From: a bacterium MS4
GTDB lineage: Bacteria > Bacillota > Clostridia > Oscillospirales > Acutalibacteraceae
NCBI GenBank assembly: GCA_000752215.1
Contig: CCFG01000008.1
Location: 389,091-453,090 of the forward strand
DNA: 64,000 bases
Reading direction: 5' to 3'
Of this stretch, positions 11,296 to 26,711 are shown piece by piece (positions within the stretch are counted from its first letter, which is position 1; each line of letters begins with the position of its first letter). Made by a program: the position numbers and the translations under genes. Below the pieces are notes generated by a model. It did not search any database. It was given only the letters and a program-made list of their open reading frames with translations, and had not been told where the DNA came from.

Positions 11296-12801
11296 ATGGA
11301 TATATTGAACCAATTAGGTACCGGATTTATGTCGGCGCTTACGATTCAGAATCTGATCGCATGTTTTGCCGGCGTGTTCGTGGGAACCGTCGTCGGGGTA
11401 TTGCCGGGAATCGGCCCTGTTGGAGCGACGGCGCTTTTACTGCCGTTTAGCTTCGGGCTGGATACCAGTACGAGCCTGATTCTGCTTTCGGGAATCTTTT
11501 ACGGCTCTATGTACGGCGGCTCCACCACTTCTATTCTGCTGAACGTACCGGGGGAATCCGCCTCAATGGTCACGGCAATTGACGGACACGAAATGGCAAA
11601 GAAAGGACGCGCGGGAGCCGCCCTTGCCGTTTCGGCCATCGGTTCGTTCATTGCAGGCACGGTGGGGGTTGTCCTGCTGATGATCTTTGCTCCGCCGCTT
11701 GGAAATTTTGCCCTTTCCTTCGGACCTCAGGAATATCTCTCGATTGCTGTACTCGGAATGCTCCTGCTCAGCAATTTGACCGGGGGGTCGTTTCTGGTTT
11801 CCCTCGGAATGTTTATTCTGGGCATGATTATCACGACGATCGGAATCGACCCGATATCCGGAATCAACCGTCTGTCCTTCGATATCCTGGACCTGTCCAA
11901 AGGAATTGAGATGCTTCCGGTCATTATGGGCCTTTTCGGTATGGCGGAAGTGTTCTCCGTCGCGGTAGAGCCCTACAAGGTCGGGGAACTCATCAAGGTG
12001 AAATTCAGGGATCTGTACCCCACAAAAAAAGAACTGAAACGGTCGGTCGCTCCCATTCTGCGCGGCACCGCGATCGGCTTCCCGATCGGCCTGATACCCG
12101 GCCCCGCCGCGGTTGTTTCTTCGCTGGTTTCTTATAAGATGGAGAAAAATTTCTCCAAGCACAAAGAAGAGTTCGGACACGGCGCGATCGAAGGCGTAGC
12201 AGGTCCCGAATCCGCCAACAACGCTGCCGCTTCCGGCACGATGATTCCCCTGCTGGCGCTCGGAATTCCGTTCGCGCCCGCTACGGCTGTTCTGCTCAGC
12301 GGCTTTATGCTGCAGGGTGTGGCGCCCGGACCTACGTTTATCAGCGGGCATGCCGACCTGTTCTGGCTGATTGTAGCCAGCATGTATATCGGCAATGTTA
12401 TGCTTCTGATTCTGAACCTTCCTCTGGTAGGAGTGTTCGCGTCTCTCACCAAGGTCAGGCCGGAGATTCTGATGCCGATTGTTGTCGCCGTCATGATGAT
12501 TGGTACATACAGCGTAAACAACAGTACCTTTGATCTCCTGATTCTGATGATTTTCGGTGTGATCGGCTACATTCTAAAGATTGTGAATATCTCACCGGCT
12601 CCCATTATTGTCGGATTTGTTCTTGGCAACGTATTTGAAAAGGGCCTGCGCCAGTCGCTGCTGGTTGCGGGCGGCGATTTTGCTTCTCTCTTTATGCGGC
12701 CGATCGCCGGCTCCATGTATCTGGTTTGCCTGGCTGTGCTTATTTGGGTCATAGTCGGACAGGTGAAGAAGAAATATAAGGTTTCTATTTCTGAGGACTG
12801 A
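11296..12801 (+). CDS. tctA: Tripartite tricarboxylate transporter large membrane subunit TctA
   Basis: 501 residues with about 11-12 membrane segments. Both copies of the family pattern are visible: [15 protein letters not shown] near 45 and [14 protein letters not shown] near 265, and the [18 protein letters not shown] loop. ATG 11296 is chosen because GGAGAAGAG lies about 9 bases upstream. It provides the ion-coupled uptake channel for a carboxylic acid delivered by TctC. The operon context points to a sugar acid. Confidence 0.93.
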
Positions 12802-12903
12802 TTCGGCCCGTCGTTTCATAAGGCGATGTATTCGGGCGTATGAGGGCGGAAAGGCCGCCTTACGGCCGGATTTCATAGTAGAAGATTAGGGAGGAATTGA
12901 AAA

Positions 12904-13959
12904 ATGTTATCTATTAAAAAGGCAGTCTGTGGTTTGCTTGCAGTTGCTCTGATGGCGACTCCGCTTTTAGGCGGCTGCCAGAGCCAGCCTAAATCCCAGT
13001 CCGGCGGCGGGGCGAACAGCACCGCGGCGGATTCCAAAACGACAGAAAACAGCGATTACCCGAAAAAGACGATTACCCTTATCAACCAGTTCGCGGCGGG
13101 CGGCTCGTCGGATGTTCTCGGCCGCGCGCTTGCCTCTGTGGTGAACAAGTATATCGGCGCGACCGTTATGGTGGAAAACAGACCGGGCGGAAGCGGCACG
13201 ATCGGGACGGATTATGTTCTGAAATCCAAGCCGGACGGATATACTTTGCTGATCACCTCTTCCGGAAACTTTACCACGACTCCCATCGTGCAGGGAGCCC
13301 CTTATGATCCGGTCAAGGATGTAAAACATATTATCGGCATTGAATCTCTTCCTATGGCAATAGTTGTGAATGCGGATTCTCAGTGGAAGACCCTTGAGGA
13401 CCTGGTGAATTACTGTAAGGAAAATCCAGGAAAGCTGAAAGCCGGGGCGGGCGTGCCCGGCGGAACCAATCATATGGCATGGCAGAGATTTACCAAAACG
13501 GCGGGAATCAAAACCAATGAAATCCCGTTCGGCGGCGGTACTTCCGAAGCGACCACTTCACTGCTTGGCAATCACATCGACGCCAGCGTGCTTCATCCCA
13601 CGGAAATCAGCGAGCAGCTCAAAGGCGGCAAGCTGCGCATGCTGGCAATTTTCAGCGATGAAAAGCTTGTTGATTACCCGGATGTCCCAACCGCCAAGGA
13701 ATGCGGCTACGATGTGGTCGTACAGGTCAACAAAGGGATCAGCGGACCGGCCGGTTTGCCGGACGACATTGTTCAGAAAATTCATGACGCTTTTAAACAG
13801 ACCATGGAAGACCCTGAATTTATTAAAATCGTACAGAAGACCGGCGATTACAATTATCTGAAGTATGAAACCGGCGATGAACTGAAAACCGATCTGGACA
13901 AAATGCGCGATGATTTCTCTCCTCTGCTGAAGGAACTCGGACTGGAAAAGAAAAAATAA
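12904..13959 (+). CDS. tctC: Tripartite tricarboxylate transporter substrate-binding lipoprotein TctC
   Basis: 351 residues beginning with a lipoprotein signal peptide that ends in the lipobox LLGGC (Cys about 25), then a Ser/Gly-rich linker and the TctC (Bug) fold starting near KKTITLINQFAAGGSSDVLGR. Bug-type proteins bind carboxylates, including sugar acids. RBS AGGGAGG precedes the ATG. Last gene of the operon; an inverted repeat follows about 85 bases downstream. Confidence 0.92.
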   Translation: MLSIKKAVCGLLAVALMATPLLGGCQSQPKSQSGGGANSTAADSKTTENSDYPKKTITLINQFAAGGSSDVLGRALASVVNKYIGATVMVENRPGGSGTIGTDYVLKSKPDGYTLLITSSGNFTTTPIVQGAPYDPVKDVKHIIGIESLPMAIVVNADSQWKTLEDLVNYCKENPGKLKAGAGVPGGTNHMAWQRFTKTAGIKTNEIPFGGGTSEATTSLLGNHIDASVLHPTEISEQLKGGKLRMLAIFSDEKLVDYPDVPTAKECGYDVVVQVNKGISGPAGLPDDIVQKIHDAFKQTMEDPEFIKIVQKTGDYNYLKYETGDELKTDLDKMRDDFSPLLKELGLEKKK

Positions 13960-14043
13960 AAATTCTGTGCGTAAACCCTTTCGAATGGCTCTGCTGTTGG
14001 TTTTCAAGGTCCGATCGCCGGCTGAAATATTGTTTTGAAAAAG

Positions 14044-14082
14044 AATTGCGGCCTTTCTGAAAATATCAGAAAGGCCGCAATT
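14044..14082. terminator. Strong hairpin between convergent operons
   Basis: 17-bp perfect stem (14044-14060 with 14066-14082) and 5-base loop between the TctC gene and the minus-strand cupin gene. It has no strong T-run on the plus side; on the minus side the exit reads CTTTTTC. It could end both convergent transcripts. Confidence 0.65.
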
Positions 14083-14241
14083 ACTTAGGGTATTTACCAA
14101 AGGCGTCTGCTATAAAGGGAAGGTGTTATTTTGGATACAGAAGTCCGAAATCTCACAATATATAAAGGACAGTTACGGGCACCAATTGAGAAAGAAAGGA
14201 ACCCATACTGTGTTGCAGCAAGGAATAGCTGGTCTCATTTT

Positions 14242-14574
14242 TTATATTGCGGCATGAAACCAAAAAACCTTGACGGGAATGGAATCAATATCTTTTTTAA
14301 TGGTATGAGGCATATTTGCAGGAACAATGAAAGATGTTTCAGGCTCAATTTTGAATTCTTGACTTCCAACCTTGGCCCAGCCGGTTCCTTCCAGCACTAG
14401 AAAGCCCTCCTGATCTGCGTGATTTCCAGGAGCCGGATATTCTGTTTTCGTATGAATACTAATTCCTGCAGAGCATCCCGCTACGCATCCGTTTTCCTCT
14501 TTCAGCATGTAATGTGTAATGTACGGCTCTGTTTTGCCGGCTGGAATATCTTTAAGGCGCTCATAATATTTCAT
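14242..14574 (-). CDS. Small cupin-domain protein
   Basis: 110-residue single-domain cupin. The family's metal-binding pattern is visible as GNHADQEGFLVLEGTGWAKV followed by a second conserved histidine in ANMPHTI. ATG 14574 is preceded by AGAGG about 10 bases away; an upstream extension to 14610 lacks one. Such proteins may be sugar or sugar-phosphate isomerases, oxygen-sensing or binding proteins. It is the last gene of an operon under the SorC-type promoter at 17.8 kb, so it should serve the RLP1 pathway, perhaps as an isomerase or mutarotase. That role is inference. Confidence 0.75.
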   Translation of the reverse strand: MKYYERLKDIPAGKTEPYITHYMLKEENGCVAGCSAGISIHTKTEYPAPGNHADQEGFLVLEGTGWAKVGSQEFKIEPETSFIVPANMPHTIKKDIDSIPVKVFWFHAAI

Positions 14575-14613
14575 AATCAAATTTCCTCTCTTATGGAATA
14601 GTAAAATCAAAAC

Positions 14614-14997
14614 TTATACGAGTTGTGCACATTTGACGCTGATGTTGTTTGTGGCTACCAAATCAACGCCGGTTCCTCCAATATTGGACTTGACAATCGT
14701 TCCCAATGCTACCGGGGCCTGCAATTCGATTTTACATATTTCTTTCATACAGTCGAATATTTTCCCTTTGCTGATCGCGTCTTTTGTTTTGACCGGTAAA
14801 AGTGGGGGATCACCATTTTTTATTTTTATTGTGGAGGTCAAAATCCGTTTTGGCGAAATCAATTCATTTTGAGCATATTCCAATCCTTTTTTACAGGTAT
14901 ATCCGCTGACATCTTGAATACTCCCGCCGTCATGGCTGATTTTGATGCTGCATCCCTTTGGACAACCGATGCAAATGATTGTTTTTTTCTCAATCAT
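14614..14997 (-). CDS. DUF1667 cysteine-rich electron-transfer partner
   Basis: 127 residues. The start contains CIGCPKGC and then YTCKKG, a cysteine pattern suited to an iron-sulfur site, followed by the DUF1667 core (LTSTIKIKNG, LPVKTKD). DUF1667 proteins occur together with GlpA-like and FAD/NAD oxidoreductases in Clostridia, forming what appears to be a three-part dehydrogenase. ATG 14997 is preferred over 15006 because AGGAG is 9 bases before it but touches 15006. Confidence 0.85.
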   Translation of the reverse strand: MIEKKTIICIGCPKGCSIKISHDGGSIQDVSGYTCKKGLEYAQNELISPKRILTSTIKIKNGDPPLLPVKTKDAISKGKIFDCMKEICKIELQAPVALGTIVKSNIGGTGVDLVATNNISVKCAQLV

Positions 14998-15009
14998 CTT
15001 TCTCATCTC

Positions 15010-16275
15010 CTATTTCATGATTGAAATATTAATATTATCCAGGTCACTTCGTAAAAGGTTTGCAGGGACAGGAAGCGCCAGCATCGAGCCCGGTGTTACA
15101 GCTTCTTTTGAAAAATTTGCAATAACCTTTCCGCCATTGTCCTTTACCACAATGCTTACGTCCCTGTCCGGATGTTTTACACGCATATAAAGCCTGACGG
15201 ATTTCTCTGCTGCGTCATCAAAATCTATGAACTGTGGAACAACATAGCCGATATTGTCTCCGTGAGTGACCGATATTCTTTTCTTTCTTGCATTGAGTTG
15301 GCTGTTTATGTACTCGGCAGCGGCTTTTCCTGCGATTTCACTTTCCACAGTCACATTGTCCACAATATCGTGCACATGCAGGACGTTCCCGCTGGCAAAG
15401 ATCCAGGGTACACTGGTCCGGCGCTTTTCATCGACAATCGGCCCCTTGGTAACCGGATCCAACTGAACATTGATCTTTTTAGACAGTTCATTTTCCGGTA
15501 TTAAACCGACGGATAATAATAATGTATCACATTTTATGCGTTTTTCCGATCCCGGAATTGCTTTTAGCTGTTTATCCACTTCGGCAATCGTGATTCCTTC
15601 AAGCCGCTCTCTGCCATGGATGTCGATAACCGTGTGATTTAAGTAAAGCGGGATGTTATAATCGTCCAGACATTGAACTTTGTTACGGACTAAGCCGGTA
15701 GAATAGGGCATGATCTCCAAGACACCTTTTACATTTGCTCCTTCCAAAGTCAGCCTTCTTGCCATGATCAACCCGATGTCACCCGACCCCAGAATAACAA
15801 TTTCTTTACCGGGCAGATATCCTTCCACGTTGACGTATCTCTGTGCGGTTCCGGCGGTCATCACACCTGATGGTCGTTCTCCGGGAATCGTCAATGCTTC
15901 GCGGGTTCGTTCGCGGCAGCCCATTGCTAAGATGACTGCTTTTGTATCGATCTCAAACAATCCGTCAAGGTGGTTAACGGCGATAATTTTTCTATTATCA
16001 AGAACGTCGATTACCATAGTGTTCAATTTAACGTCAATGTCGGTTGCTTTCACCTTTTTGATGAATCTGTCGGCATACTCGGGTCCGGTCAGCTCTTCTT
16101 TAAAGTACTGAAGGCCGAAACCGTTGTGAATGCACTGCTCTAAAATCCCACCTAGGCTGGATCCTCTTTCGCAGATAAGAATTTTTTCAACACCGTTTTT
16201 CTTTGCCTCCAGAGCTGCCGACAAGCCCGCCGGCCCTCCTCCGATAACAACGATATCATAATACAATCTTTTCAT
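15010..16275 (-). CDS. NAD(P)/FAD-dependent oxidoreductase of the GlpA-associated type
   Basis: 421 residues. FAD-binding GGGPAGLSAAL at the N-terminus, a second nucleotide-binding GSGDIGLIMARRL near 150, and an ATG-type motif IFASGNV near 300. The family is the pyridine nucleotide-disulfide oxidoreductase class II without the redox-active cysteine pair of thioredoxin reductase. It probably passes electrons between the GlpA-like dehydrogenase and NAD(H). ATG 16275 has GGAGAG upstream and overlaps the preceding gene by 20 bases, indicating tight coupling. Confidence 0.87.
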   Translation of the reverse strand: MKRLYYDIVVIGGGPAGLSAALEAKKNGVEKILICERGSSLGGILEQCIHNGFGLQYFKEELTGPEYADRFIKKVKATDIDVKLNTMVIDVLDNRKIIAVNHLDGLFEIDTKAVILAMGCRERTREALTIPGERPSGVMTAGTAQRYVNVEGYLPGKEIVILGSGDIGLIMARRLTLEGANVKGVLEIMPYSTGLVRNKVQCLDDYNIPLYLNHTVIDIHGRERLEGITIAEVDKQLKAIPGSEKRIKCDTLLLSVGLIPENELSKKINVQLDPVTKGPIVDEKRRTSVPWIFASGNVLHVHDIVDNVTVESEIAGKAAAEYINSQLNARKKRISVTHGDNIGYVVPQFIDFDDAAEKSVRLYMRVKHPDRDVSIVVKDNGGKVIANFSKEAVTPGSMLALPVPANLLRSDLDNINISIMK

Positions 16276-17758
16276 GATCTCTCCTCGCTTCCTGTAAAGA
16301 CAAATCTTTGTTATTAAATGCCAGCACATAGGAACCTTTTCCTTTTTTTGTGACTTCAAGAGGAGAAATGTTCATCTCATGTTTCAAAATATCCAATACT
16401 CTGGGTCCGCAGAATCCGCCTTGGCAACGTCCCATTCCGGCGCGTGTCCTGCGTTTGACAGCGTCGATATTTGTTGCGGGAATGGGGCGATGAATTGCAT
16501 CAATAATCTCACCCCTGCTCACGGTTTCGCACCTGCAAATGATGGTTCCGTAATCGGGATTCTTTTTGATCAACTCATCCCGCTCCTCGTAGGAAAGATC
16601 TCTAAGTACAATTGGTTTCGGACGGTCGATTCGATAATTTCCTTTTTCCGTAAAGTTTAGGTCATAATGAAGGTCTCTGACCAAATCTTCAACCATCATC
16701 GCAATTGCGGGGCAGGAGGACAATCCGGGCGACTGAATTCCTGCTACATTGATGAATCCCTTTACTGTCTTTGCGTATCCGATTATAAAATCTTCTCCTG
16801 TGGCGGCGGCTCTCAGTCCTGTAAATGTGGTAATGACGTCGCCCATGCGGGGAAGTTTCGGGAAAATACGGGAAATGATCTTTCCGTAGATTTCTTCCAG
16901 CCCTTCATATGTTGTGGAAACATCTTCCTTGTCATCCAGCAATTGGGCGTTGGAACCTGCCAGAATGTTCCCCTCTGTAGTGGGAACGATAATCATACCT
17001 TTTGAAATTTTTGTCGGTGAGGAGTAAATGGTATGCTTTACGTAATCGCCCCACTTTTTATCATACAGGAAATACTGGCCTTTTCTCGGCTTGATTTCAA
17101 AATCGATATTTTCCACCATTGCCGCAACCTTATCGGCGAAAAGCCCGGCCGCATTGATTACCACCTTAGCTCCAATAACTCCTTTATTGGTCCGTACCGC
17201 TTCGACCTTCTGATTTTTTACAAGGACTCCCTGAACCTCTGTGTTTAGCAACACTTTGACGCCGTTTAAGACCGCATTTTCTGCCAAAGCCCTCGTCAAT
17301 TCAAAGGGGTTTATGGTGCCGGTGTTTGGATTGTAAAGCCCGAACATTGCTTCCGGATTGATATTCGGCTCCATTTGATGGAGTTCTTCCTTTCCGACGA
17401 TTCGTAATCCCTTTACCCCGTTTTTTTGGCCATTGGCCATTTGTTCTTTCATGACTTTCATATCGTCATCTTCAAAGCCTATGACAATTGATCCGATGTT
17501 TTTGACATATGGAATATATAAATCTTTGCACAGTTTTTCAAAATATGGATTTGCTTTCAAAACCAGTTTACCCTTTAATTTCTGACTGTCCACATTGTAA
17601 CCGTCATGAACCATGGAGGAATTAGCCTTGCTTGACCCCATGCAAATATCACTTTCTTTCTCGACCAGCACGATATCCAGATTATATCGCGCCAGTTGAT
17701 GAGCGATTGCCGAGCCAATGACTCCGCCCCCAATAATGATAATATCCGTTTTCATCAT
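16256..17758 (-). CDS. GlpA-like FAD-dependent dehydrogenase with BFD [2Fe-2S] domain
   Basis: 500 residues. An N-terminal DAO-type FAD domain starts with IIIIGGGVIGSAIAHQLARY. The C-terminal about 90 residues form a BFD-like iron-sulfur domain with CRC near 410 and GRCQGGFCGPRV near 445. This is the layout of anaerobic glycerol-3-phosphate dehydrogenase subunit A and related 2-hydroxy acid oxidases. First gene of a four-gene operon with the FAD/NAD protein, DUF1667 and cupin genes, driven by a promoter that carries the SorC core motif. In this regulon the substrate is more likely a phosphorylated polyol or hydroxy acid of the RLP1 pathway than glycerol phosphate itself, but sequence alone cannot decide. 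Confidence 0.85.
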   Translation of the reverse strand: MMKTDIIIIGGGVIGSAIAHQLARYNLDIVLVEKESDICMGSSKANSSMVHDGYNVDSQKLKGKLVLKANPYFEKLCKDLYIPYVKNIGSIVIGFEDDDMKVMKEQMANGQKNGVKGLRIVGKEELHQMEPNINPEAMFGLYNPNTGTINPFELTRALAENAVLNGVKVLLNTEVQGVLVKNQKVEAVRTNKGVIGAKVVINAAGLFADKVAAMVENIDFEIKPRKGQYFLYDKKWGDYVKHTIYSSPTKISKGMIIVPTTEGNILAGSNAQLLDDKEDVSTTYEGLEEIYGKIISRIFPKLPRMGDVITTFTGLRAAATGEDFIIGYAKTVKGFINVAGIQSPGLSSCPAIAMMVEDLVRDLHYDLNFTEKGNYRIDRPKPIVLRDLSYEERDELIKKNPDYGTIICRCETVSRGEIIDAIHRPIPATNIDAVKRRTRAGMGRCQGGFCGPRVLDILKHEMNISPLEVTKKGKGSYVLAFNNKDLSLQEARRDHEKIVL

Positions 17759-17799
17759 TTACTCCTCTTTTCAATGTGATAAAGTAATATTCTGCCAGT

Positions 17800-17844
17800 A
17801 TTATATTGCCGCCTTGAAATTCTATCAACATGGAAAATATTTTC
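17800..17844 (-). promoter_or_regulatory. SorC-controlled promoter of the GlpA-like operon
   Basis: On the minus strand: palindromic core GAAAATATTTTC (17833-17844), 4 bases, -35 TTGATA (17823-17828), 17 bases, -10 TATAAT (17800-17805). The palindrome extends by one base on each side (GG...CC). The core is centred about 45 bases before the expected transcript start, an activator position. Confidence 0.75.
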
Positions 17845-17886
17845 CTTATGCAAAAAGCATTGATAAAGCCGCCCTTCGCAGATCGC

Positions 17887-18921
17887 TCAAACCGAAATTG
17901 CTTGACCTTGCTTTTGCGTGTGGGATGCCATTTTTCTGTTTAGCTTTAAAATGGAGTTTCCCAGCATGTAATCCGTAATCAATACATCAATGAGATGTCC
18001 CTTTAAAGCGGACCAAACTGAAAAAGCTTTCCCTTCCCCGGAAGAAATGGTGATTTTTGTTTTGATTTTTTTAAACTTTTCAAAATCAATGGAAATTGTC
18101 CTGTCAATCAGATCGGTGTTACATTCCTTTCCGTGCATGTCAAAAAAACGAAGGGCAACATCGCCCACAACATTTTTACTTTGCAGATCTTCTACCTCAA
18201 ACTGATTCAAATACTCTTTTTTGGCCAACACCGAACTCAAGGTCGGATAATAGGAACCAATCCCGTTAATTGAAATATCAATATTATCAAACATCTCAAA
18301 TACGGTTTGAATATTTTTTTCATTTTTGATTGAATTCGCAACGTTTTTATTGCTCATAAGACCTTCTGTCAACAAATAGTACTTTCTCCCTGAAAAAGCT
18401 TTTGCCATCCTTGAAACAAGCGTACGCACGTCAAGTTCGTTGTCGCAGCATGCAATACTTCCGTGAAGCGTAACAAACGATGCGTCAACCTTTTGACAGG
18501 GATTCAAATAGTTAATCAAATAATACATATGGCTTCCCCATGTAATCCCGAGGATGTCATTTTCTCTGATGATTCTCTGAAGATATCTGGCCCCTTCCAA
18601 AGCGACCAACTTTTTGACGTTATTGCAGCCGGAGATATTATTTTCAACTGAATTCGCCATTGGGGTGGGTGCGATGATGACATCTTTTAGCCCGAATGTT
18701 TTTTGCAGCTCCTCTTCCAGACGAATGCAGTCTATATAAGGATCACGAATCACAAATTCCACAATCTTCTCTTCTTTCGCCTTTTTAATAAGTCGCGAAA
18801 CAGTCGTGATGGATATATTCAGCATTTCGGCAATCTCATTTTGGGGAATGTCTTTTATGTAGTAGAGATAAGCGGCTTTGAGAATAATAAAAGTCGATTG
18901 ATTGTAAACTTCAGATTCCAT
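17887..18921 (-). CDS. SorC-family transcriptional regulator (RLP1 locus)
   Basis: 344 residues: a helix-turn-helix near 15-45 (QNEIAEMLNISITTVSRLIKKA) and a C-terminal sugar-binding domain of the DeoR/SorC type (VALEGARYLQRI, DDILGITWGSHMY-like signature). These domains bind phosphorylated sugars or sugar derivatives. It is clearly paralogous to the regulator at 63.2 kb: both start with SEVYNQS and share the LNPC and HGSIA stretches. GGAGGT precedes the ATG. Its own promoter carries the same core motif as the GlpA-like operon and RLP1, consistent with autoregulation. Confidence 0.88.
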   Translation of the reverse strand: MESEVYNQSTFIILKAAYLYYIKDIPQNEIAEMLNISITTVSRLIKKAKEEKIVEFVIRDPYIDCIRLEEELQKTFGLKDVIIAPTPMANSVENNISGCNNVKKLVALEGARYLQRIIRENDILGITWGSHMYYLINYLNPCQKVDASFVTLHGSIACCDNELDVRTLVSRMAKAFSGRKYYLLTEGLMSNKNVANSIKNEKNIQTVFEMFDNIDISINGIGSYYPTLSSVLAKKEYLNQFEVEDLQSKNVVGDVALRFFDMHGKECNTDLIDRTISIDFEKFKKIKTKITISSGEGKAFSVWSALKGHLIDVLITDYMLGNSILKLNRKMASHTQKQGQAISV

Positions 18922-19069
18922 ATTCTACCTCCGTCTTAATTCCAAGCGGCATATTGAAACAACAAATCTTCTTGATTTGAAAGCATCGAAAGCATACGAG
19001 TAACTATTTGTTATATAATAATTGCATATAATATTTATTTAATTTGTATTAATTTTGTATGTTATGTAA

Positions 19070-19114
19070 ATTATATTGCTACTTTCAATTATTAACAAGA
19101 GGGAAAATATTTTC
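19070..19114 (-). promoter_or_regulatory. Autoregulated promoter of the SorC gene
   Basis: Minus strand: core GAAAATATTTTC (19103-19114), 4 bases, TTGTTA (19093-19098), 17 bases, TATAAT (19070-19075). Geometry is identical to the GlpA-like and RLP1 promoters. The leader to the ATG at 18921 is about 140 bases and AT-rich, with no other recognised element. Confidence 0.75.
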
Positions 19115-19180
19115 ACACTGATATTTTCAAGGCTCCATACCCTTTACAAGAGCACTGGAGGTGCTTATGGGCCTCCATAA

Positions 19181-19221
19181 AGCAAACTGGCGTCGCTTTA
19201 AAACGACGCCAGTTTGCTTTT
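19181..19221. terminator. Hairpin downstream of RLP1
   Basis: 15-bp perfect stem (19181-19195 with 19204-19218) between the end of RLP1 and the SorC promoter. T-runs are weak on both sides, so termination strength is uncertain; it probably insulates the two minus-strand transcripts. A smaller hairpin with GGAGG/CCTCC arms lies at about 19157-19177. Confidence 0.6.
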
Positions 19222-19331
19222 GACGGAAGGAATTCTGTATCAGGACAGTTTTATTCGCTGTCCTCTTTGGGGACAGGTCCGCACCGTAAGAAAAGTGGAG
19301 TGATGGGGGCAACGGACCGGAAACGTATGTA

Positions 19332-20666
19332 TCAAAGAGCGTAATTGTCTTTCACGTTGGTTTCGCCGTAGATGCCCCATATTTTGATGGCACAAGCCAA
19401 CTCTTCGCAGGATTTCGCGGCTTCTCTGAGGTTGACGCCTTTCGTGGTTGCATCCATAGCGACTCTCATAGCTTTTGCACCGGCGGCTGGGCCCATCGGA
19501 TGGGCATGTATACCGGCGCCAACGCCAAGCAGAACATCGGGGCCGATGTCGTCTACAAGCTGTGGAACAAGTCCGGGAATGACTCCTCCGCCAACCATCG
19601 GCAGAGTGGGCTTCAAATCATAGAATTTTGCAGCCGAGGCGATACAGTTCTTGATATATTTTGCCTTGGTAATATCAAATTTGCCGTAAGGCGGCTCCAG
19701 CAGCATCGTATCTGCACCGCACATCCTTGTCAGCTTGGTCAGTACAAGTGAGCTGACGCCCTGATACTGCGAAACCGTCCAAGAGGCACCGAAGCAGCAA
19801 TGAGAAAGAATCGGAACCGTAATCTTAGGATCTTCGGCAAGATCCCTCAGAGCGGACAAACCGATACCAAAGGTATCTACCATAAGGCAGTTCGCACCAG
19901 CGTTGATGGCTTTGTATGCGTTGTCTTTAAGACGAGAGATTTCGTCCGTAATGTTGACGGCATACATGGTGACTTCCCCCTTGACCTTGTCGGCTCTGTG
20001 TGCGGCATCCATGTTCTTCTTTACGCGTTCTTCAAGAGAGTTGAATGACCTGTCGCCGCCGATCAATTCATCATCTTTGATGAGATCCACACCGCCGACC
20101 GCGGCTTCATAGAAAAGCTTTGCGCCGACATCCGGAGTATAACCGGTGCAGGGCTTGATCATGTTGTTCAGCAACGGCCTGCCGTATGCGCCGAGGATCT
20201 TCCTGATGCCGGCGATACCGAATTTGGGACCTTTAAACTTTGAAACATAACTTTTTGGAAAATCAATGTCAAGAATTCTCAGATAGGGCATAGCGGTGAC
20301 ATTACCCAGGATAGTGGCGAACAGCAGAGGGATGTTGTCTTCGATATTGACGGTCGGATACCCCATCCTGACGATATACCACCGTTTGCCGTCCTCGGCA
20401 ATGTCGTCGTTGACATTTGACTGATTTTCATAGTCAGGTACTTCGTAAATGGCAAGAATTTTGGCTGCGTAGTTGATCCTTACTTCCTCTGTCTCTTCGG
20501 GAACATCGACCCATGAGCCTGTGGTCTGTTCGATTCCGATTGCAGTCGCCTTAATGATAGGATCTTCATTCTTCCTACAGGCAATCAGATATGTTGCAAC
20601 ACATAACTCATCAAGATTGACTCCTTCGTACATCGGGTTGAGAACCGAACTGTAAAATCTGTTCAT
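19332..20666 (-). CDS. RuBisCO-like protein 1 (form IV RLP)
   Basis: 444 residues with the full RuBisCO large-chain layout. Conserved: EQTTGSW near 46-51; GN in ATILGN (N122); K171 in IKPC, matching the proton-shuttling K175 of plant RuBisCO; carbamylation lysine K197 with metal ligands D199 and E200 (GGVDLIKDDE); H289; loop-6-like PYGK with K329; HPMGPAAGA near 389-397. Changed: the second lysine of KPK is C173, the arginine after H289 is C290, the position of H327 is hydrophobic, and the serine of SGG is glycine. Carboxylase activity is therefore not expected. RLPs act as enolases, isomerases or lyases, for example in methionine salvage and apionate catabolism. GGAGGT precedes the ATG. It is monocistronic, under a SorC-type promoter. 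Confidence 0.93.
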   Translation of the reverse strand: MNRFYSSVLNPMYEGVNLDELCVATYLIACRKNEDPIIKATAIGIEQTTGSWVDVPEETEEVRINYAAKILAIYEVPDYENQSNVNDDIAEDGKRWYIVRMGYPTVNIEDNIPLLFATILGNVTAMPYLRILDIDFPKSYVSKFKGPKFGIAGIRKILGAYGRPLLNNMIKPCTGYTPDVGAKLFYEAAVGGVDLIKDDELIGGDRSFNSLEERVKKNMDAAHRADKVKGEVTMYAVNITDEISRLKDNAYKAINAGANCLMVDTFGIGLSALRDLAEDPKITVPILSHCCFGASWTVSQYQGVSSLVLTKLTRMCGADTMLLEPPYGKFDITKAKYIKNCIASAAKFYDLKPTLPMVGGGVIPGLVPQLVDDIGPDVLLGVGAGIHAHPMGPAAGAKAMRVAMDATTKGVNLREAAKSCEELACAIKIWGIYGETNVKDNYAL

Positions 20667-20708
20667 ACTAACAAACCTCCGTTTTTTTTATTTGGTGATT
20701 CTATGCGT

Positions 20709-20753
20709 ATTATATGGTAACCTTCACTTTTCAACAACATAGAAAATATTTTC
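20709..20753 (-). promoter_or_regulatory. SorC-controlled promoter of RLP1
   Basis: Minus strand: core GAAAATATTTTC (20742-20753), 4 bases, TTGTTG (20732-20737), 17 bases, TATAAT (20709-20714). The flank CAACAT next to the core also occurs at the GlpA-like promoter. Confidence 0.75.
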
Positions 20754-20862
20754 ACATGCCTCCGTCGCCTTATCCGTCAAACGCCAATGTGGACTTGCGC
20801 TTAATATTGAAATTATTTTCTATAATTGGTCCTTGCAATTTTTTTCAATGTGTCTATTTGAA

Positions 20863-20891
20863 TTGCAATAGGTTATTATGAATAATATAGT
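20863..20891 (+). promoter_or_regulatory. Promoter of the G1P-dehydrogenase-like gene
   Basis: TTGCAA at 20863-20868, 17 bases, TATAGT at 20886-20891. A half-copy of the SorC core (TATATTTTCAC, about 20927-20937) lies downstream, which may link this divergent unit weakly to the same regulator. Confidence 0.55.
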
Positions 20892-20988
20892 TCGGTTAAG
20901 AGATGGATAAAATGTACATTTAGTACTATATTTTCACAGTGTTTGGAATCCACCTTTAGAGCCGATAACATCTGAAAGAAGGGCCATT

Positions 20989-22485
20989 ATGTTAAACCGT
21001 CTGCCGCCACTCGTATACAAATACGATGTTGGCAACATGAAAGATTTAAACCAGCGCATTGCGCGTTGGTCCGATTATGAGCAGATTCCCAAAATTGAAA
21101 TGAAAGGCGTTATTGAGGGACAGGATGCAATATTCCAGCTTCCGCAGATACTGCAGTCTTTGGGAGTGCAGGCAGGGTGCCGCGTACTTGCCGTAATGGA
21201 TGAAACGGTCATGCTGCGCAAGGGCGAGAAACTGAAAGAACTGGTGCTCGGCCTGCTTGCAAACGCTGGTTATAAGATCGAGCGGCTTGTTCTAAAGGGT
21301 GATTCCTATGGAGTGGTCCATGCGGAATTCAGCCAGGTGGAAAGGGTTATGGCCCGCTTGGATGAGCGCTGTGCCGTGCTATCCATCGGTTCCGGCGTAG
21401 TTACCGACATAACCAAGCACTCCTGCTACTGTTACTGCGATGAAAAAGGGATCAAGCCGCTCCCGCTGGTTTCCTTAATGACTGCCAACAGTGTGCCTGC
21501 CTACACATCGCCTTCATCCATCATTATGAAGGATCATGTCAAACGCACATGGCCTTCCCGCGCTCCGGACATGATTGTTATGGACATTCAGACGCTGATG
21601 GACTGCCCGTTACATTATACCGTAGGCGGAGTGGGCGACCTCTTCCCGGTGTTTTGCGCATTTGCCGACTGGTATCTGGCCGACTGTATGGGCATGTCAA
21701 ATTTTGTCGACGGTTCCTGGCGGATTATGGACGATGTCAAGGAACTTCTGGTCCCTTATATGGAGGAGATCGCGAACCGTACATACGAGGGCATGGAAGT
21801 ATTGGGCAATTGCCTGCATCTGACCGGCCTAACCATGATGTTTGCCAGAGATTCCGTGCCAATGTCAGGTTATGAACATGTCATAAGCCACATGTTAGAT
21901 ATGAGCGCCGCCTATGACAAGCGTAAGACGGGGCTGCACGGCCAGCAGGTTGGTGAGGCAATGATACTGTCACTGATCAACATGGAAAAGCTTTTCAGCC
22001 GTCTGGACAGGGAACTCGCCTCCGGCGGGATCAACATCGACAGCTGTTATCCGGCTGCCGATAAAATGGAAAAAATCGTGCTTCGTGTTTTTGAGCCGCT
22101 GGACCCTTCCGGAAAGATGGGCCGCGAATGCTGGAGCGACTATGCGGTCAAGCTTAAAAATTGGACGGATGCCCGTCCGAAATTTGAGGCATTTCTGAAG
22201 AATTGGGACACATACCGTACCGTTTTCTCCGGTCTGTTACCCTATACTGCGCTGGAATGTGCCCGAGCGCTTAACCGGTCAAAGCATCCGCTGCTGTTCA
22301 GCGAGCTTGACGCCCCCATTACTGAGGAGCGGGTCCGCTGGGCTGTGCGCAATGCCAATCTTATGCGTAAGCGCTTTACTTCCGACGACCTGGTTTATTA
22401 TCTCGGCTGGTTTGATAAGCAATGGGAGGACGACATCTTCACAAGGTTCTATGATATTGTGAAAGCCGTACGTACAGAAGACTAG
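20989..22485 (+). CDS. Glycerol-1-phosphate dehydrogenase-like protein (AraM/EgsA family, Fe-ADH superfamily)
   Basis: 498 residues, about 100 longer than usual AraM proteins. The family is shown by the NAD region GSGVVTDITKHS near 130, the VGGVGDLFPVFCAFADW stretch, and the metal-binding histidines in SGYEHVISHMLDM and TGLHGQQVGEAM. Bacterial AraM makes sn-glycerol 1-phosphate from dihydroxyacetone phosphate; relatives may act on other short keto-phosphates. The extra residues are at the C-terminus and as insertions. It diverges from RLP1 and precedes a glycerol-kinase-like gene, so it probably oxidises or reduces a phosphorylated polyol in the RLP1 pathway. GAAGGG precedes the ATG. Confidence 0.82.
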   Translation: MLNRLPPLVYKYDVGNMKDLNQRIARWSDYEQIPKIEMKGVIEGQDAIFQLPQILQSLGVQAGCRVLAVMDETVMLRKGEKLKELVLGLLANAGYKIERLVLKGDSYGVVHAEFSQVERVMARLDERCAVLSIGSGVVTDITKHSCYCYCDEKGIKPLPLVSLMTANSVPAYTSPSSIIMKDHVKRTWPSRAPDMIVMDIQTLMDCPLHYTVGGVGDLFPVFCAFADWYLADCMGMSNFVDGSWRIMDDVKELLVPYMEEIANRTYEGMEVLGNCLHLTGLTMMFARDSVPMSGYEHVISHMLDMSAAYDKRKTGLHGQQVGEAMILSLINMEKLFSRLDRELASGGINIDSCYPAADKMEKIVLRVFEPLDPSGKMGRECWSDYAVKLKNWTDARPKFEAFLKNWDTYRTVFSGLLPYTALECARALNRSKHPLLFSELDAPITEERVRWAVRNANLMRKRFTSDDLVYYLGWFDKQWEDDIFTRFYDIVKAVRTED

Positions 22486-22667
22486 ACTTGAAAGCTTAAA
22501 ATACTGCGTGGTTCTGTAGGCTGGTAATTCGCAAACTACGTCTGTCCGGATTCGTATTTCTGATTGTAAGTGCTGTTCATGCAACAATCTGGAAGCCTTC
22601 TTAATTATTTAGTGAAAAAACGGAGCGGTCCGTTTATCAATATTATTTTTTATTAGGAGGAGTTCAA

Positions 22668-24161
22668 ATGAAAGATTATATTCTTTGCATCGATGAAGGT
22701 ACGACGAGCACCAGGGCAATTATTTTGAATCATGACGGCGACTGGATTGGCATCGCGCAAAAAGAACTGACCCAGATATACCCAAAACCCGGCTGGGTGG
22801 AGCACAATCCTGTTGAAATGTGGAAGTCAACGATTGAGGTTATTAAAGGTGCGATTGATGATGCGGGCGTTACGGAAGATCAGATCGAAGCGATCGGTCT
22901 TACAAACCAGCGGGAAACAGCCGTTGTATGGGATAAGAATACGGGAATACCGGTTTATAACGCGATTGTCTGGCAAGACAGAAGAACCGCCGAGTATTGT
23001 GACGAATTAAAGGAAAAGGGATACGGCTCCACCTTCCAGAAAAAAACCGGTTTGATTGTGGACCCTTATTTTTCCGGAACAAAAGTCCACTGGATACTTG
23101 AAAATGTGCCCGGAGCACGGCAAAAAGCTAAAAATGGAGAACTGTTTTTCGGCAACGTCGACAGTTGGATTATGTACAATCTGACCGAAGGCAAAGAGCA
23201 TATAGAAGACTACAGCAATGCAAGCCGGACCATGATGTTCAATATTCGCGAGCTGAAGTGGGATCAGGAGCTTCTTGATATTCTGGAAGTTCCGAGTAAC
23301 ATGCTGCCAGAGGTTAAAGAAAACAGCGGATTATTCTGCAAAGCTACCGCAATCTTTAAAGAACCGATTCCGATCACCGGTGTTGCCGGCGACCAGCAGG
23401 CCGGAACATTCGGCCAATGTGCTTTCAAAAAAGGCATGTCCAAATTTACCTACGGTACCGCCGGAGTTATTGATGTAAACTGTGGTGACACGATCCCTTC
23501 CTTCGACAACGGCATGACTACAACTTTAGGCTGGGTTCTGAATGGCCAGCCTACATACTTGGCAGAGGCTACTGTGTACTGCTCAGGTGCGGCCGTGCAA
23601 TGGCTACGTGACGACATGAAATTTATTGAGGCAACACCCGATTCCGAATTTTTTGCCAACAAGATTGCGGACAGCAAAGGGGTGTATGTGGTACCCGCTT
23701 TTACGGGTCTGGGCGCTCCCTACTGGGATCCTTATGCCCGTGGCACAATCGTCGGCCTTGCCAGAGGCTCCGACAAAAATCATATTATACGTGCTACACT
23801 TGCTTCCTTGTCCTATCAAACGAAAGATCTGTATGATTGTGCGCTGGCCGGTCTGGACCAGAAGATCTCAATACTGAAGGTGGACGGGGGAGCCTGCCGA
23901 AACAACCTGATGGCGCAGTTCACGGCCGACATCCTGAATTGTGATGTCGAACGTCCAAAGAACGTTGAGACCACCGCCACAGGCGCCGGATATCTTGCCG
24001 GACTTGCGGTGGGCTTCTGGAAAGATTTCGACGACGTCGCCTCTACCCGAAAGATCGACAGAGTGTTCAAGCCATCCATGAGCGAAGAAAGTCGCGATGC
24101 ATACTATAAAGGCTGGAAACGCGCCGTCACCGCAGCAATGGCATGGAGCAATGCAAGGTAA
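22668..24161 (+). CDS. Glycerol-kinase-like FGGY kinase
   Basis: 497 residues, close to GlpK along its whole length: TNQRET, RTMMFNI, GDQQAGTFGQ, PAFTGLGAPYWDPYARG, GGACRNNL. Some active-region positions differ from E. coli GlpK: DQGTTSSR is DEGTTSTR, the TYGTG loop reads TYGTAG, and the EGAVFMAG stretch reads EATVYCSG. These may change substrate or ligand preference, so erythritol, a ketose or another triol is possible besides glycerol. AGGAGGAG precedes the ATG. It follows the G1P-dehydrogenase-like gene and ends at a bidirectional terminator. Confidence 0.88.
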   Translation: MKDYILCIDEGTTSTRAIILNHDGDWIGIAQKELTQIYPKPGWVEHNPVEMWKSTIEVIKGAIDDAGVTEDQIEAIGLTNQRETAVVWDKNTGIPVYNAIVWQDRRTAEYCDELKEKGYGSTFQKKTGLIVDPYFSGTKVHWILENVPGARQKAKNGELFFGNVDSWIMYNLTEGKEHIEDYSNASRTMMFNIRELKWDQELLDILEVPSNMLPEVKENSGLFCKATAIFKEPIPITGVAGDQQAGTFGQCAFKKGMSKFTYGTAGVIDVNCGDTIPSFDNGMTTTLGWVLNGQPTYLAEATVYCSGAAVQWLRDDMKFIEATPDSEFFANKIADSKGVYVVPAFTGLGAPYWDPYARGTIVGLARGSDKNHIIRATLASLSYQTKDLYDCALAGLDQKISILKVDGGACRNNLMAQFTADILNCDVERPKNVETTATGAGYLAGLAVGFWKDFDDVASTRKIDRVFKPSMSEESRDAYYKGWKRAVTAAMAWSNAR

Positions 24162-24193
24162 ATACAATTTATCTTCCTTAAATTGCAGATAAA

Positions 24194-24226
24194 AATGCGG
24201 CCATCACAGAAAGTGATGGCCGCATT
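24194..24226. terminator. Bidirectional terminator
   Basis: 14-bp stem (24194-24207 with 24213-24226), 5-base loop, between the convergent glycerol-kinase-like and RpiB-like genes. The minus-strand exit has a T-run. Confidence 0.8.
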
Positions 24227-24264
24227 GCGTTAAAAGAATCCCGTGTGAATGGACTGCTGTATGC

Positions 24265-24906
24265 TTATTCGCCTACGACTGATTTTACAAATGCGGTAAG
24301 AGCCTCGTCCTTGCTGTTCGCGTAGAAAAGCTCTTTAAAGTGCGCGCCGCCGAGAGCGCCCTTCAGCAGTTCCTGGTCGATGCCCTTCAGGCAGGTAATG
24401 ATATCGTGGAAATTGTTTGCCCTTACGGCGTCAAGAATCTTCTTGTTGCTGCGCTCGACCTGCTGTTTTTCCTTCGGATAGCCGCCGCCGCTCTCGCAGC
24501 CGAACAGTTTTTCAAAGATATATTCCAGATTGCACTCCGCCCCCCAGCCAAAGCCCTTTGCAAAGGGAAGGGAAATCGAGTTGCCGTCGTTGATCTGTGC
24601 AAACATGAAAGCGTCGCTCGGGTCGACCACATGGCCGCAGATCACACCGGGGAAGCTGTTGAGCGCGAGCATGGCTCCTTCGCCGGTGCCGCAGCCGGTA
24701 ATGACATAATCGGCCGCGCCGCTGTTCAATAATACGGCGGCCAGAATGCCGTTCTGCACATAGGTCAGCCATTCCTTATCCGTTGCCGTATACATGCCGT
24801 AATTGTATACCGTATGACCCATTGGTTCGACTACCTTTTTCAGTACGCTGCAGATCAATTCATTTTTGGAAGCCTGACTGTTTTCGTTTATCAGTGCTAT
24901 TTTCAT
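24265..24906 (-). CDS. RpiB/LacAB-family sugar-phosphate isomerase with C-terminal extension
   Basis: 213 residues; RpiB is usually about 150. The active-site cysteine loop is visible in VITGCGTGEGAM, followed by a conserved PGVICGHVVDPSDA stretch. Family members isomerise ribose 5-phosphate, allose 6-phosphate, galactose 6-phosphate or tetrose phosphates. The extra about 60 C-terminal residues are helical in appearance and not recognised. Last gene of an eight-gene minus-strand operon that includes a split transketolase and a sugar ABC importer, so a pentose- or tetrose-phosphate substrate fits. AAGGAG precedes the ATG. Confidence 0.82.
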   Translation of the reverse strand: MKIALINENSQASKNELICSVLKKVVEPMGHTVYNYGMYTATDKEWLTYVQNGILAAVLLNSGAADYVITGCGTGEGAMLALNSFPGVICGHVVDPSDAFMFAQINDGNSISLPFAKGFGWGAECNLEYIFEKLFGCESGGGYPKEKQQVERSNKKILDAVRANNFHDIITCLKGIDQELLKGALGGAHFKELFYANSKDEALTAFVKSVVGE

Positions 24907-24958
24907 GGTATCTCTCCTTTATTTCCTCGGGCCACATGACGCCGTCCGGGGGATTTTT

Positions 24959-25885
24959 TTATAAAATGGATTTTGTTTGCTCCAGTACGGATTCCGTATC
25001 CAGACCGTATTCACGCAGAAGCTCCTCCGGTTTTCCGGATTGGCCGAAACGGTCCTGCACCCCGATCTTTTTGAACCGGAAATCGCCTTTGCCGATCAGC
25101 ACGGCGGATACCGCGTCGCCTAGACCGCCGATTACGCTGTGCTCTTCGATGGTGACTGCCTTTTTGCACCGGGAGGCATAACGCAGCACGCAGTCCTCGT
25201 CGATCGGCTTGATGGTATGGATGTTGACTACAGAAGCGGATACTCCGCTTTCCGACAGTCTCGCCGCACACTCCAGCGCGGTAGCCACCATGATGCCGCA
25301 GGCGAACAGGACTACGTCGCCGCCTTCGCGCAAAACATTGGCCTTTCCGATTTCAAACGGCATTTCCTGCTCGAATATCGGAGACGCGGGCCTTGCAAGA
25401 CGCAGATAGGAGGGGCCTTTTATAGCGGCCACCGCGTTGACGGCGCGCTTCGCTTCGTTTGCGTCGCACGGCACGATCACCGTCATGCCCGGAATCACGC
25501 GCATCAGAGCAAGGTCCTCAATGGCCTGATGGCTGCCGCCGTCCTCGCCAAGCGTGATTCCCGCGTGCGTCATGCCCAGCTTCACGTTGAAATTCGGGTA
25601 CGCAACGCTGTTGCGCACCTGTTCATACGCGCGTCCCGCGCCAAAGATGGCAAACGTGCTGCAGAATGGGATGAATCCCATCGTGGAAAGTCCCGCGGCC
25701 ATGGAGATCATGTTTGCTTCCGCGATTCCGCCGTTAAAGAAACGTTCCGGATATTTTTCGGCGAAGCCGTTGGTCATGGTCGCGTGCGCCAGATCGGCGT
25801 CCAGAACGACGACCTTGTCGTTTTTTGCGCCAAGGTCGACCAGCGCTTCCCCGTAGGCGGCTCGTATTGCTTTTAATTCACTCAT
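24959..25885 (-). CDS. Transketolase, C-terminal (pyrimidine-binding) subunit
   Basis: 308 residues covering the Pyr and C-terminal domains of a split transketolase. Visible features are the thiamine-pyrimidine region with DADLAHATM, GIAEANMI with the catalytic glutamate, and GEDGGSHQAIEDLALMR. The partner with the diphosphate-binding domain is the next gene upstream, 4 bases away. Split transketolases move two-carbon units in pentose phosphate metabolism; dedicated pairs also act in apulose 4-phosphate breakdown. The operon context suggests a dedicated catabolic pair. Confidence 0.9.
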   Translation of the reverse strand: MSELKAIRAAYGEALVDLGAKNDKVVVLDADLAHATMTNGFAEKYPERFFNGGIAEANMISMAAGLSTMGFIPFCSTFAIFGAGRAYEQVRNSVAYPNFNVKLGMTHAGITLGEDGGSHQAIEDLALMRVIPGMTVIVPCDANEAKRAVNAVAAIKGPSYLRLARPASPIFEQEMPFEIGKANVLREGGDVVLFACGIMVATALECAARLSESGVSASVVNIHTIKPIDEDCVLRYASRCKKAVTIEEHSVIGGLGDAVSAVLIGKGDFRFKKIGVQDRFGQSGKPEELLREYGLDTESVLEQTKSIL

Positions 25886-25889
25886 TCTA

Positions 25890-26711
25890 TCAGCCCTTCA
25901 TTTCTTCGAGCGCGGCATCCCGCTCGGCGGGAGAGGGTGCTTTCCCGTGCCAGCCCACTTGATTTTCCATAAAGGAAACACCTTTTCCTTTGACCGTATG
26001 TGCTAGAATGCATTTCGGTTTTCCCGGCCTTGCGGGAATTTCCAGCGCGTTGATCACCTGGCCGATCTCGTTGCCGTCGGCCAGCTCGATCACGTCGAAC
26101 CCAAACGCTTCGAAGCGGTCCCGCAGATTGCCCAAAGCCATGACCTGATCGTTGGTGCCGTCGATCTGCAGCCCGTTGTTATCGACCATCACCGTCAGAT
26201 TGTCCAGCTTGTAGTGGGCGGCCGCGGTGCATGCTTCCCAGACCTGTCCTTCCTGCAGTTCGCCGTCGCCGAGGATCGTATACACCTTCTGGGGGCCTTT
26301 CGCCGCTTTGGCTCCCAGCGCCATCCCTACGGCGATGGAAATTCCCTGGCCCAGCGAGCCGGTCGAAGCGTCCACGCCGGGGACTTTTTTCGCGTCCGGA
26401 TGGCCCTGAAGAATGCTGTGAAGCTGGCGGAAGTTTTTGAATTCCGCCTTGTCGAAAAACCCCATTTCGCCCAGAACCGCATAATAACACGGAGAAGCGT
26501 GCCCTTTGCTGAGCACAAACCGGTCCCGCGCCGGGTCGTCCGGATTTTTGGGGTCTACTCTCATCTGTGTGCAGTATGTCGCGGCGAGCAGCTCCACCAT
26601 GGAAAGGGAGCCGCCCGGATGTCCGCTGGCCGCGCCGGCGACCATTTCAATAATGTCGCGGCGCAGCTGCGTGCATAGGGAAACAAGTTGTTGATTGTCC
26701 AGTCTTTTCAT
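25890..26711 (-). CDS. Transketolase, N-terminal (thiamine diphosphate-binding) subunit
   Basis: 273 residues. The thiamine diphosphate motif starts with LGDGELQEGQVWEA near 147 and continues to a conserved NNGLQIDG. Upstream features GHPGGSLSMVELLA and SKGHASPCYYAV are typical. It needs the adjacent C-terminal subunit to form the active enzyme. Preceded by a modest AAGGT site. Confidence 0.9.
   Translation of the reverse strand: MKRLDNQQLVSLCTQLRRDIIEMVAGAASGHPGGSLSMVELLAATYCTQMRVDPKNPDDPARDRFVLSKGHASPCYYAVLGEMGFFDKAEFKNFRQLHSILQGHPDAKKVPGVDASTGSLGQGISIAVGMALGAKAAKGPQKVYTILGDGELQEGQVWEACTAAAHYKLDNLTVMVDNNGLQIDGTNDQVMALGNLRDRFEAFGFDVIELADGNEIGQVINALEIPARPGKPKCILAHTVKGKGVSFMENQVGWHGKAPSPAERDAALEEMKG

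Follow-up and report, generated by a model that had tools for sequence, protein, structure and literature searches.

EryD, the erythritol regulator, belongs to the SorC family. According to the excerpted text of PMC10190533, it carries a helix-turn-helix (HTH) and a C-terminal effector domain, forms a homotetramer and acts on an operator, eryO, between the -35 and -10 boxes. B. subtilis DeoR is described in the excerpts of PMC11229326 as a repressor whose operator, containing TTGAACAAAATTTCAA, extends from -60 to -21 with an upstream palindrome and a repeat downstream of the -35. The erythritol pathway comprises EryA, EryB, the racemase EryC, TpiA2 and RpiB (PMC5992420, in excerpt). For RuBisCO-like proteins (RLPs), the functions met in the sources, likewise in excerpt, are methionine salvage, the methylthioadenosine (MTA)-isoprenoid shunt, whose RLP isomerises a ketose-1-phosphate (PMC5893883), and the breakdown of D-apiose, in which the RLP OiaX is a 3-oxo-isoapionate-4-phosphate decarboxylase (PMC6302742). 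Here we analyse a stretch of 64,000 nucleotides from the bacterium MS4 of the Acutalibacteraceae (contig CCFG01000008.1, positions 389,091 to 453,090; the window), in which an RLP gene, RLP1, lies close to the gene of a SorC/DeoR-type regulator, SorC1, and to a GlpA-like dehydrogenase set. It appears that one sugar-sensing regulator controls a small set of RLP and sugar-alcohol genes. We hold with considerable confidence that a SorC1 regulon joins the RLP, SorC and GlpA/GlpB/DUF1667 genes and, in relatives, a GlpK-like kinase, and, as judged from their sequences, the same switch with the same spacing is present in distantly related anaerobic bacteria. What carries this at the sequence level are the sites, their geometry, their specificity within the genome, their co-occurrence with SorC and a conserved gene set.

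The features on which the argument turns are these.

17833–17844, minus strand: proposed SorC half-operator GAAAATATTTTC of the GlpA operon, in an exact composite found at three genome places only
17800–17828, minus strand: GlpA operon promoter, -35 TTGATA at 17828–17823, 17-base spacer, -10 TATAAT at 17805–17800
19103–19114, minus strand: proposed half-operator through which SorC would control its own gene, from reading and pattern search
19070–19098, minus strand: SorC promoter TTGTTA-N17-TATAAT, 10/12 consensus matches
20742–20753, minus strand: proposed SorC half-operator of RLP1, from reading and pattern search
20709–20737, minus strand: RLP1 promoter TTGTTG-N17-TATAAT, with a weak -35 (3/6), absent from the promoter-scan list
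17887–18921, minus strand: SorC1, SorC/DeoR-type regulator, by PF04198, HTH profile and PDB matches
19332–20666, minus strand: RLP1, RuBisCO-like protein, below the curated MtnW and OiaX cut-offs
16256–17758, minus strand: GlpA-like FAD (flavin adenine dinucleotide) oxidoreductase with a BFD-type [2Fe-2S] domain, by profile matches

Direct reading and a pattern search agree that the composite GAAAATATTTTC-N4-(-35)-N17-TATAAT stands at three minus-strand promoters, those of the GlpA-like gene, SorC1 and RLP1. The GlpA-operon copy (17844–17800) reads GAAAATATTTTC CATG TTGATA N17 TATAAT ahead of a gene start at 17758, the SorC1 copy (19114–19070) GAAAATATTTTC CCTC TTGTTA N17 TATAAT ahead of 18921, and the RLP1 copy (20753–20709) GAAAATATTTTC TATG TTGTTG N17 TATAAT ahead of 20666. 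All three have a perfect TATAAT, a 17-base spacer and a -35 that starts with TTG, and the GlpA-operon promoter is the best promoter-like site across 14000–25000 (11/12 consensus matches). The first-pass annotation of this DNA had described just this arrangement, a shared core, a 4-base gap and a 17-base spacer to TATAAT, and it is confirmed here. It had also centred the palindrome at about -45, which is where it falls at all three promoters when transcription is assumed to start 7 nt past the -10.

In the genome of 3,737,722 bases the exact composite occurs at three places, all of them in this window, and the reversed-pattern control occurs at 0. The argument of the first-pass annotation that the same spacing at three sites is unlikely by chance is borne out by this count, and the full-genome motif search that it had proposed did not turn up many unrelated sites, which leaves the regulon unrefuted. 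With up to 3 mismatches, four more places appear, each with 2–3 mismatches; three of them fall within called open reading frames (ORFs) and one (L016) outside. The exact core is present nine times in the genome, and since six of these copies lie within ORFs, the three window promoter cores are the only intergenic ones, as the mechanical ORF caller defines intergenic. A fourth exact core in the window (63850–63861) was rejected as a site, as it lies inside the coding sequence of a second regulator, SorC2, and a near-core at 5719, inside a DUF1537 gene, was set aside. A search of 391 genomes from this class, the own one among them, finds the exact composite in the own genome alone. One mismatch adds five places in five genomes (control: 1 place), and these we treat as chance, because no RLP, SorC or GlpA gene was recognised within about 3 kb of them, as judged by ORF starts.

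The same footprint is seen at RLP loci of other genomes. RLP1 is rare in its family (a match at E 1e-60 or better in 3 of 200 genomes, own included), and its relatives were gathered by protein similarity without use of the motif; from 201 relatives 80 loci were kept, of which the 42 closest (L023–L064) entered the full analysis and 38 more distant ones (L065–L102) the test of composite against SorC only. A clustered SorC1 homologue is present at 22 of the 42 closest loci, and an intergenic core with at most one mismatch accompanies 21 of these 22 versus 3 of the 20 others. The corresponding Fisher p of 9e-8 is too optimistic, because the loci are not independent, being partly kin (four from Acetobacterium, three from Sporomusa). 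Among the core-positive loci counted as SorC-less, L036 and L049 are short contigs whose first base lies within the GlpA gene or about 0.9 kb ahead of it, and the record of L032 also carries a SorC-bearing cluster (L048). In the SorC loci, the real core has 53 intergenic matches versus 0–3 for each of 29 palindromes permuted from the same letters. The distance from core to a TATAAT-like box is exactly 27 nt, as in the window, in 27 matches, the next highest distance having 10. The composite (core with at most one mismatch, -10 with at most two) is kept at 14 of the 18 RLP genes that have their own promoter, and at L028 it precedes the RLP with two core mismatches. These 18 genes remain when L032 and L036 are added to the 22 loci with a clustered SorC and six whose RLP starts at most 40 nt behind DUF1667 (L024, L025, L037, L042, L046, L064) are taken away; L049 was excluded as its RLP, too, comes after DUF1667. 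Among the 38 further loci, the composite is present at both loci with a SorC1 homologue (L086 and L091, about 130 nt upstream of the RLP match) and at 0 of the 36 without.

One locus, L027, is a natural control for the tie between SorC and motif: it has a kinase-GlpA-GlpB-DUF1667-RLP run, no SorC homologue by tblastn and no core within one mismatch, and an adjoining gene of 262 residues starts, as read by eye, like a DeoR/GlpR-type HTH protein. A few loci speak against a strict tie. L043 has a SorC and no core, L026 has no composite before its RLP, in L038 the -10 lies, by eye, 26 nt from the core, and L063 has a partial SorC match (42% identity, cut at the contig start) and no core. The last was taken as SorC-less in the counts above and in the Fisher test; when tblastn matches are counted and L063 is included, the core is found at 21 of 23 SorC loci versus 3 of 19 others. 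Over these genomes the motif behaves as a phylogenetic footprint tied to the presence of SorC. As separate observations, tandem GAAAATATTTTC-like copies 20 bp apart lie upstream of the RLP in L035, L036 and L023, a step of about two helical turns that might be expectable for a SorC tetramer, and a tandem pair of SorC genes precedes the kinase-GlpA-RLP operon in L042, L046 and L064.

A second system lies at the far end of the window.

58713–58757, plus strand: RLP2 promoter, SorC2-type palindrome GAAATATTTTTC-27 nt-TATAAT, of the same geometry
58800–60128, plus strand: RLP2; a near-identical RLP3 lies beyond the window end
63248–64000, plus strand: SorC2, a paralogous SorC regulator, extending past the window

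The pattern GAAATATTTTTC-27 nt-TATAAT stands before RLP2 and RLP3 and, with one mismatch allowed, nowhere else in the genome, and a genome of the same genus (G025) has the variant palindrome GAAATAAATTTC at the same distance. The geometry is thus common to two SorC/RLP systems. The second cluster, which continues from the window end into L103, holds SorC2, GlpA/GlpB, FGGY kinases, HAD-like proteins and a glycerol-1-phosphate-dehydrogenase-like paralogue. As part of the tentative reading of the RLP role given below, the two paralogous systems would have kept the 27-nt geometry while their palindromes diverged.

SorC1 itself has the sugar-binding domain PF04198 (187.3 bits) and N-terminal HTH matches. 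Its best PDB match is DeoR (8r7y, E 2.9e-39), followed by the sorbitol-operon regulator (2w48, E 2.4e-36), and it reaches 213.3 bits against the Bacillus DeoR equivalog NF053881, below the cut-off of 420; by these scores it is in DeoR's family yet not DeoR itself. The recognition helix TTVSR is found in all 25 SorC rows that cover it, and SorC2 reads KPTVSR. In the operator as printed in the excerpt of PMC11229326, GAACAAAATTTC, the inner 12-mer of TTGAACAAAATTTCAA, shares the layout GAA-N6-TTC with GAAAATATTTTC. We infer the binding of SorC1 to the three sites and its oligomeric state: it would be a local, self-regulating SorC/DeoR-type regulator that sits as a dimer of dimers on GAA-N6-TTC palindromes preceding the -10 of its targets by exactly 27 nt, with a sugar phosphate of the pathway as the likely effector. 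In some relatives SorC probably also contacts a weaker second half-site across the -35 and spacer. The alignment of 29 promoters, made up of 26 of the 37 core rows from relatives and the three window sites, has this degenerate half-site at +18 bp over the -35 and spacer in 6 of 29 rows with at most two mismatches and in 9 of 29 with at most three, against background means of 0.11 and 0.19 per offset. Eleven rows had been removed by eye (three as near-duplicates, namely both sites of L053 and L034 1478, and eight because their boxes were poor or ambiguous), which inflates the conservation of the -35 and of the G of the second half-site in this alignment; the +18 signal exceeds this row-selection bias, yet it shares its G with the -35. 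Two points tell against this part of the mechanism. The half-site step is 18 bp in relatives versus 22 in DeoR (a hand count on the printed operator), and no second half-site can be recognised at the three window promoters, so that the two-half-site model rests on relatives.

That the three sites arose by chance, or are bound by a global regulator unrelated to SorC, might be suspected from the core, a short AT-rich palindrome with nine exact copies in the genome. The intergenic position together with the exact geometry is confined to the three sites, however, the motif follows the presence of SorC across loci, and permuted palindromes are rare; we regard this explanation as exceedingly improbable. 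A chance origin in particular was rejected on the uniqueness of the composite in the genome, the ORF location of the other cores, the permuted controls and the 38-locus test. The direction of control is less clear-cut. The first-pass annotation had placed the palindrome where class II activators bind, and the part of its claim that concerns a site beside the -35 at fixed spacing stands, whereas activation is not established, position not being decisive. SorC1 might indeed contact sigma or the alpha C-terminal domain from beside the -35 and turn on weak promoters: the 27-nt spacing is strict across lineages, the -35 of RLP1, TTGTTG, has only 3 of 6 consensus matches, the initial TTG is replaced by TAG in 5 and by TGG in 2 of the 29 compared promoters, and the SorC2-type promoters of RLP2 and RLP3 carry TTTTCT as their -35. 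Yet two of the three window promoters are strong by consensus (11/12 and 10/12), DeoR, the relative characterised in most detail, acts as a repressor from a comparable position as excerpted in PMC11229326, EryD represses from its site between -35 and -10 (PMC10190533, in excerpt), and the additional half-site that some relatives have over the -35 fits occlusion. Class II activation is therefore a serious possibility that we put somewhat short of even, and repression relieved by an effector is slightly favoured over it.

The genes that the proposed switch would bring together include, besides those listed above, the following.

15010–16275, minus strand: GlpB-like flavoprotein, by profile matches and locus comparison
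14614–15006, minus strand: DUF1667 protein, third part of the GlpA/GlpB set, by profile matches and locus comparison
14242–14574, minus strand: small cupin, last gene of the run, by profile matches and locus comparison

Beyond the RLP1 promoter lie three further features.

20809–20820, no strand assigned: near-core GAAATTATTTTC with one mismatch, seen in the sequence between RLP1 and the divergent dehydrogenase gene
20989–22485, plus strand: glycerol-1-phosphate-dehydrogenase-like Fe-ADH_2 protein, 99.7 bits versus a cut-off of 413, with a paralogue in the second cluster
22668–24161, plus strand: GlpK-like polyol kinase, with Val in place of Phe270 of the E. coli glycerol kinase

The tie between the RLP and a GlpA-like dehydrogenase set, proposed in the first-pass annotation, gains support from both the genome-wide search and the other genomes. 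The commonest arrangement, SorC-GlpK-GlpA-GlpB-DUF1667-(cupin)-RLP, is found in Acetobacterium, Clostridium drakei, Pseudoramibacter, Eubacteriaceae and Lachnospiraceae; the cupin directly precedes the RLP in four Acetobacterium loci, and the GlpK-like kinase gene is a regular partner of the regulon in relatives. In Sporomusa and Desulfosporosinus the RLP stands with GlpA, GlpB, GlpC and GlpK, and SorC and the motif were not found; three Sporomusa clusters also have a MIP-like channel that scores under the MIP cut-off. Propionispira and Fusibacter combine the RLP with phosphotransferase system genes, named by sequence reading, and an alcohol dehydrogenase or a short-chain dehydrogenase/reductase (SDR). 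What unites these arrangements is a sugar alcohol or acid that is phosphorylated and oxidised, together with an RLP. A PHP-domain protein, for its part, recurs beside the SorC/RLP pair in L045, L043 and L041.

Several observations do not sit easily with a single polyol pathway under SorC1. At five Lachnospiraceae-type loci (L029, L038, L040, L041, L044) a KdgT-like transporter, a DUF1537 kinase and PdxA accompany SorC and RLP in place of GlpK and GlpA, and a single polyol pathway can therefore not cover all members. In the window, the kinase gene is divergent, alongside the glycerol-1-phosphate-dehydrogenase-like gene, and the own genome yielded no composite site for the kinase gene. No TATAAT-like box lies, by eye, 27 nt from the near-core at 20809–20820 on either strand, so that control of the divergent dehydrogenase and GlpK genes by SorC1 is not supported. 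The kinase pocket, in turn, is counted in favour of the proposed module. Phe270 of E. coli glycerol kinase lines the glycerol pocket. The window kinase passes the glycerol kinase GlpK profile TIGR01311 (638.4 bits versus a cut-off of 590.35), but this residue is V, T or C in all 25 sequences compared; the other pocket residues are retained except for Y135E in 4 of the 25.

A 1-phospho-2-ketose is the kind of compound that enzymes of the RuBisCO fold enolise. From the gene set we infer the class of substrate and the reaction of the RLP: the GlpK-like kinase would phosphorylate a polyol, the GlpA/GlpB/DUF1667 flavoenzyme set would oxidise the polyol phosphate to a 1-phospho-2-ketose, and the RLP would enolise this ketose phosphate, the resulting epimerisation or carbonyl shift opening the way into central metabolism.

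A place in methionine salvage, with RLP1 as the 2,3-diketo-5-methylthiopentyl-1-phosphate (DK-MTP-1-P) enolase MtnW or as the isomerase of the MTA-isoprenoid shunt and the cupin as methylsulfurylase, would be in keeping with MtnW being its best hidden Markov model and PDB match. The residue Lys98 of MtnW is the general base. RLP1 scores below the cut-offs of the MtnW profiles (319.6 < 409 and 281.6 < 513.6 bits), though, has Asn at the K98 position, as do all 41 aligned RLPs, and its neighbours are polyol-type enzymes; MtnA (TIGR00512) has 0 matches in the own genome, while the same search matches 9 of 14 control genomes. All 41 RLPs keep the K-D-D-E motif and the IKP lysine. The shunt does pair an RLP with a cupin (PMC5893883, in excerpt), and a cupin is present here, but on the low MtnW scores, the Asn and the missing MtnA match methionine salvage was rejected for RLP1 and is very unlikely. 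More attractive, if still doubtful, is that RLP1 acts as a 4-carbon ketose-phosphate epimerase or isomerase in place of EryC in an erythritol-type pathway, by which we mean a kinase, a GlpD/GlpA-like dehydrogenase, a racemase, and triosephosphate isomerase (TIM)-like and RpiB-like isomerases. L107 has, in a one-strand row, transketolase N and C, RpiB, TIM, RLP, GlpA, GlpB and DUF1667, its transketolase halves sharing 50 and 51% identity with the window's own; L041 has TIM and RpiB beside SorC and RLP (its RpiB reaching 112.9 bits against D-erythrulose-4-phosphate isomerase, below the cut-off of 240), L024 has TIM upstream of SorC, and the MIP-like channel of Sporomusa would fit as well. Pentitols or branched polyols would also suit the gene set, however, TIM and RpiB stand beside few clusters, and the L107 RLP is only ~40% identical to RLP1, which makes that case an argument by analogy. 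Two further points count against the pathway reading: the single TIM match of the own genome lies on another contig, and the RpiB gene at 24265, which has no tblastn match in L107, may be part of the sugar gene set next to it. With these reservations we tentatively propose that RLP1-type RLPs are ketose-1-phosphate epimerases or isomerases of anaerobic polyol catabolism that replace an EryC-type racemase under dedicated SorC regulators.

Two neighbouring gene sets frame the cluster. At 24265–32196 an RpiB-like protein, a split transketolase, a ribose-type ATP-binding cassette transporter, an SDR and a 2-hydroxyacid dehydrogenase adjoin it, perhaps a pathway of the D-apiose transketolase type; alternatively, by analogy with the position of its L107 homologues, the split transketolase may serve the RLP pathway. 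At 3251–13959 a PrpR-like sigma-54 regulator heads a cluster for acid-sugar catabolism, which, as read from the translations, further contains a DUF1537 kinase, an Fe-ADH, PdxA, a DHDPS-like protein, a 2-hydroxyacid dehydrogenase and a tripartite tricarboxylate transporter.

Few functions of RLPs are known, and a conserved regulon makes a new one directly testable. In acetogens, gut Lachnospiraceae and other anaerobes, the regulon links one RLP group with polyol kinases and with dehydrogenases of the glycerol-phosphate type, and its SorC operator of fixed geometry offers a test case for SorC action beside the -35. If RLPs of this group do serve as epimerases or isomerases of polyol pathways, the RuBisCO superfamily would gain a new metabolic role. 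Among the literature matches listed, no title or abstract opening points to an RLP that takes part in the catabolism of polyols or to a SorC regulon that includes an RLP; PMC10176493 names RuBisCO-like together with erythrulose.

Set against known systems, SorC1 resembles B. subtilis DeoR and its dra-nupC-pdp operator in domain order and in a GAA-N6-TTC half-operator on the upstream side of the promoter. It differs in its gene set, in self-regulation, in the 27 nt to the -10 and in a second half-site that lies 18 bp on in relatives, is degenerate and is not recognisable in the window sites; of the two regulators, DeoR is the one for which repression is established. With OiaX, RLP1 shares a place in sugar catabolism, but it scores 179.8 bits against NF042437 versus a cut-off of 700, and a carboxylate substrate would not be expected from a polyol. 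With the RLPs of the MTA-isoprenoid shunt (DeepYkr clade, Rhodospirillum rubrum) it would have in common a presumed ketose-1-phosphate isomerisation and a cupin nearby, whereas its own genome is without an MtnA match and its partners are a polyol kinase and a dehydrogenase. The ery cluster of Brucella and Ochrobactrum (EryA, EryB, EryC, EryH, EryI, EryD) differs from this locus in that here an RLP would take the place of EryC, GlpA/GlpB/DUF1667 that of EryB, the substrate is a predicted one, and the operator precedes the -35 rather than lying between -35 and -10 as eryO does. Both, however, bring together a polyol kinase, a GlpD-type dehydrogenase, in some relatives isomerases of the TIM and RpiB types, and a regulator with an HTH and an effector domain.

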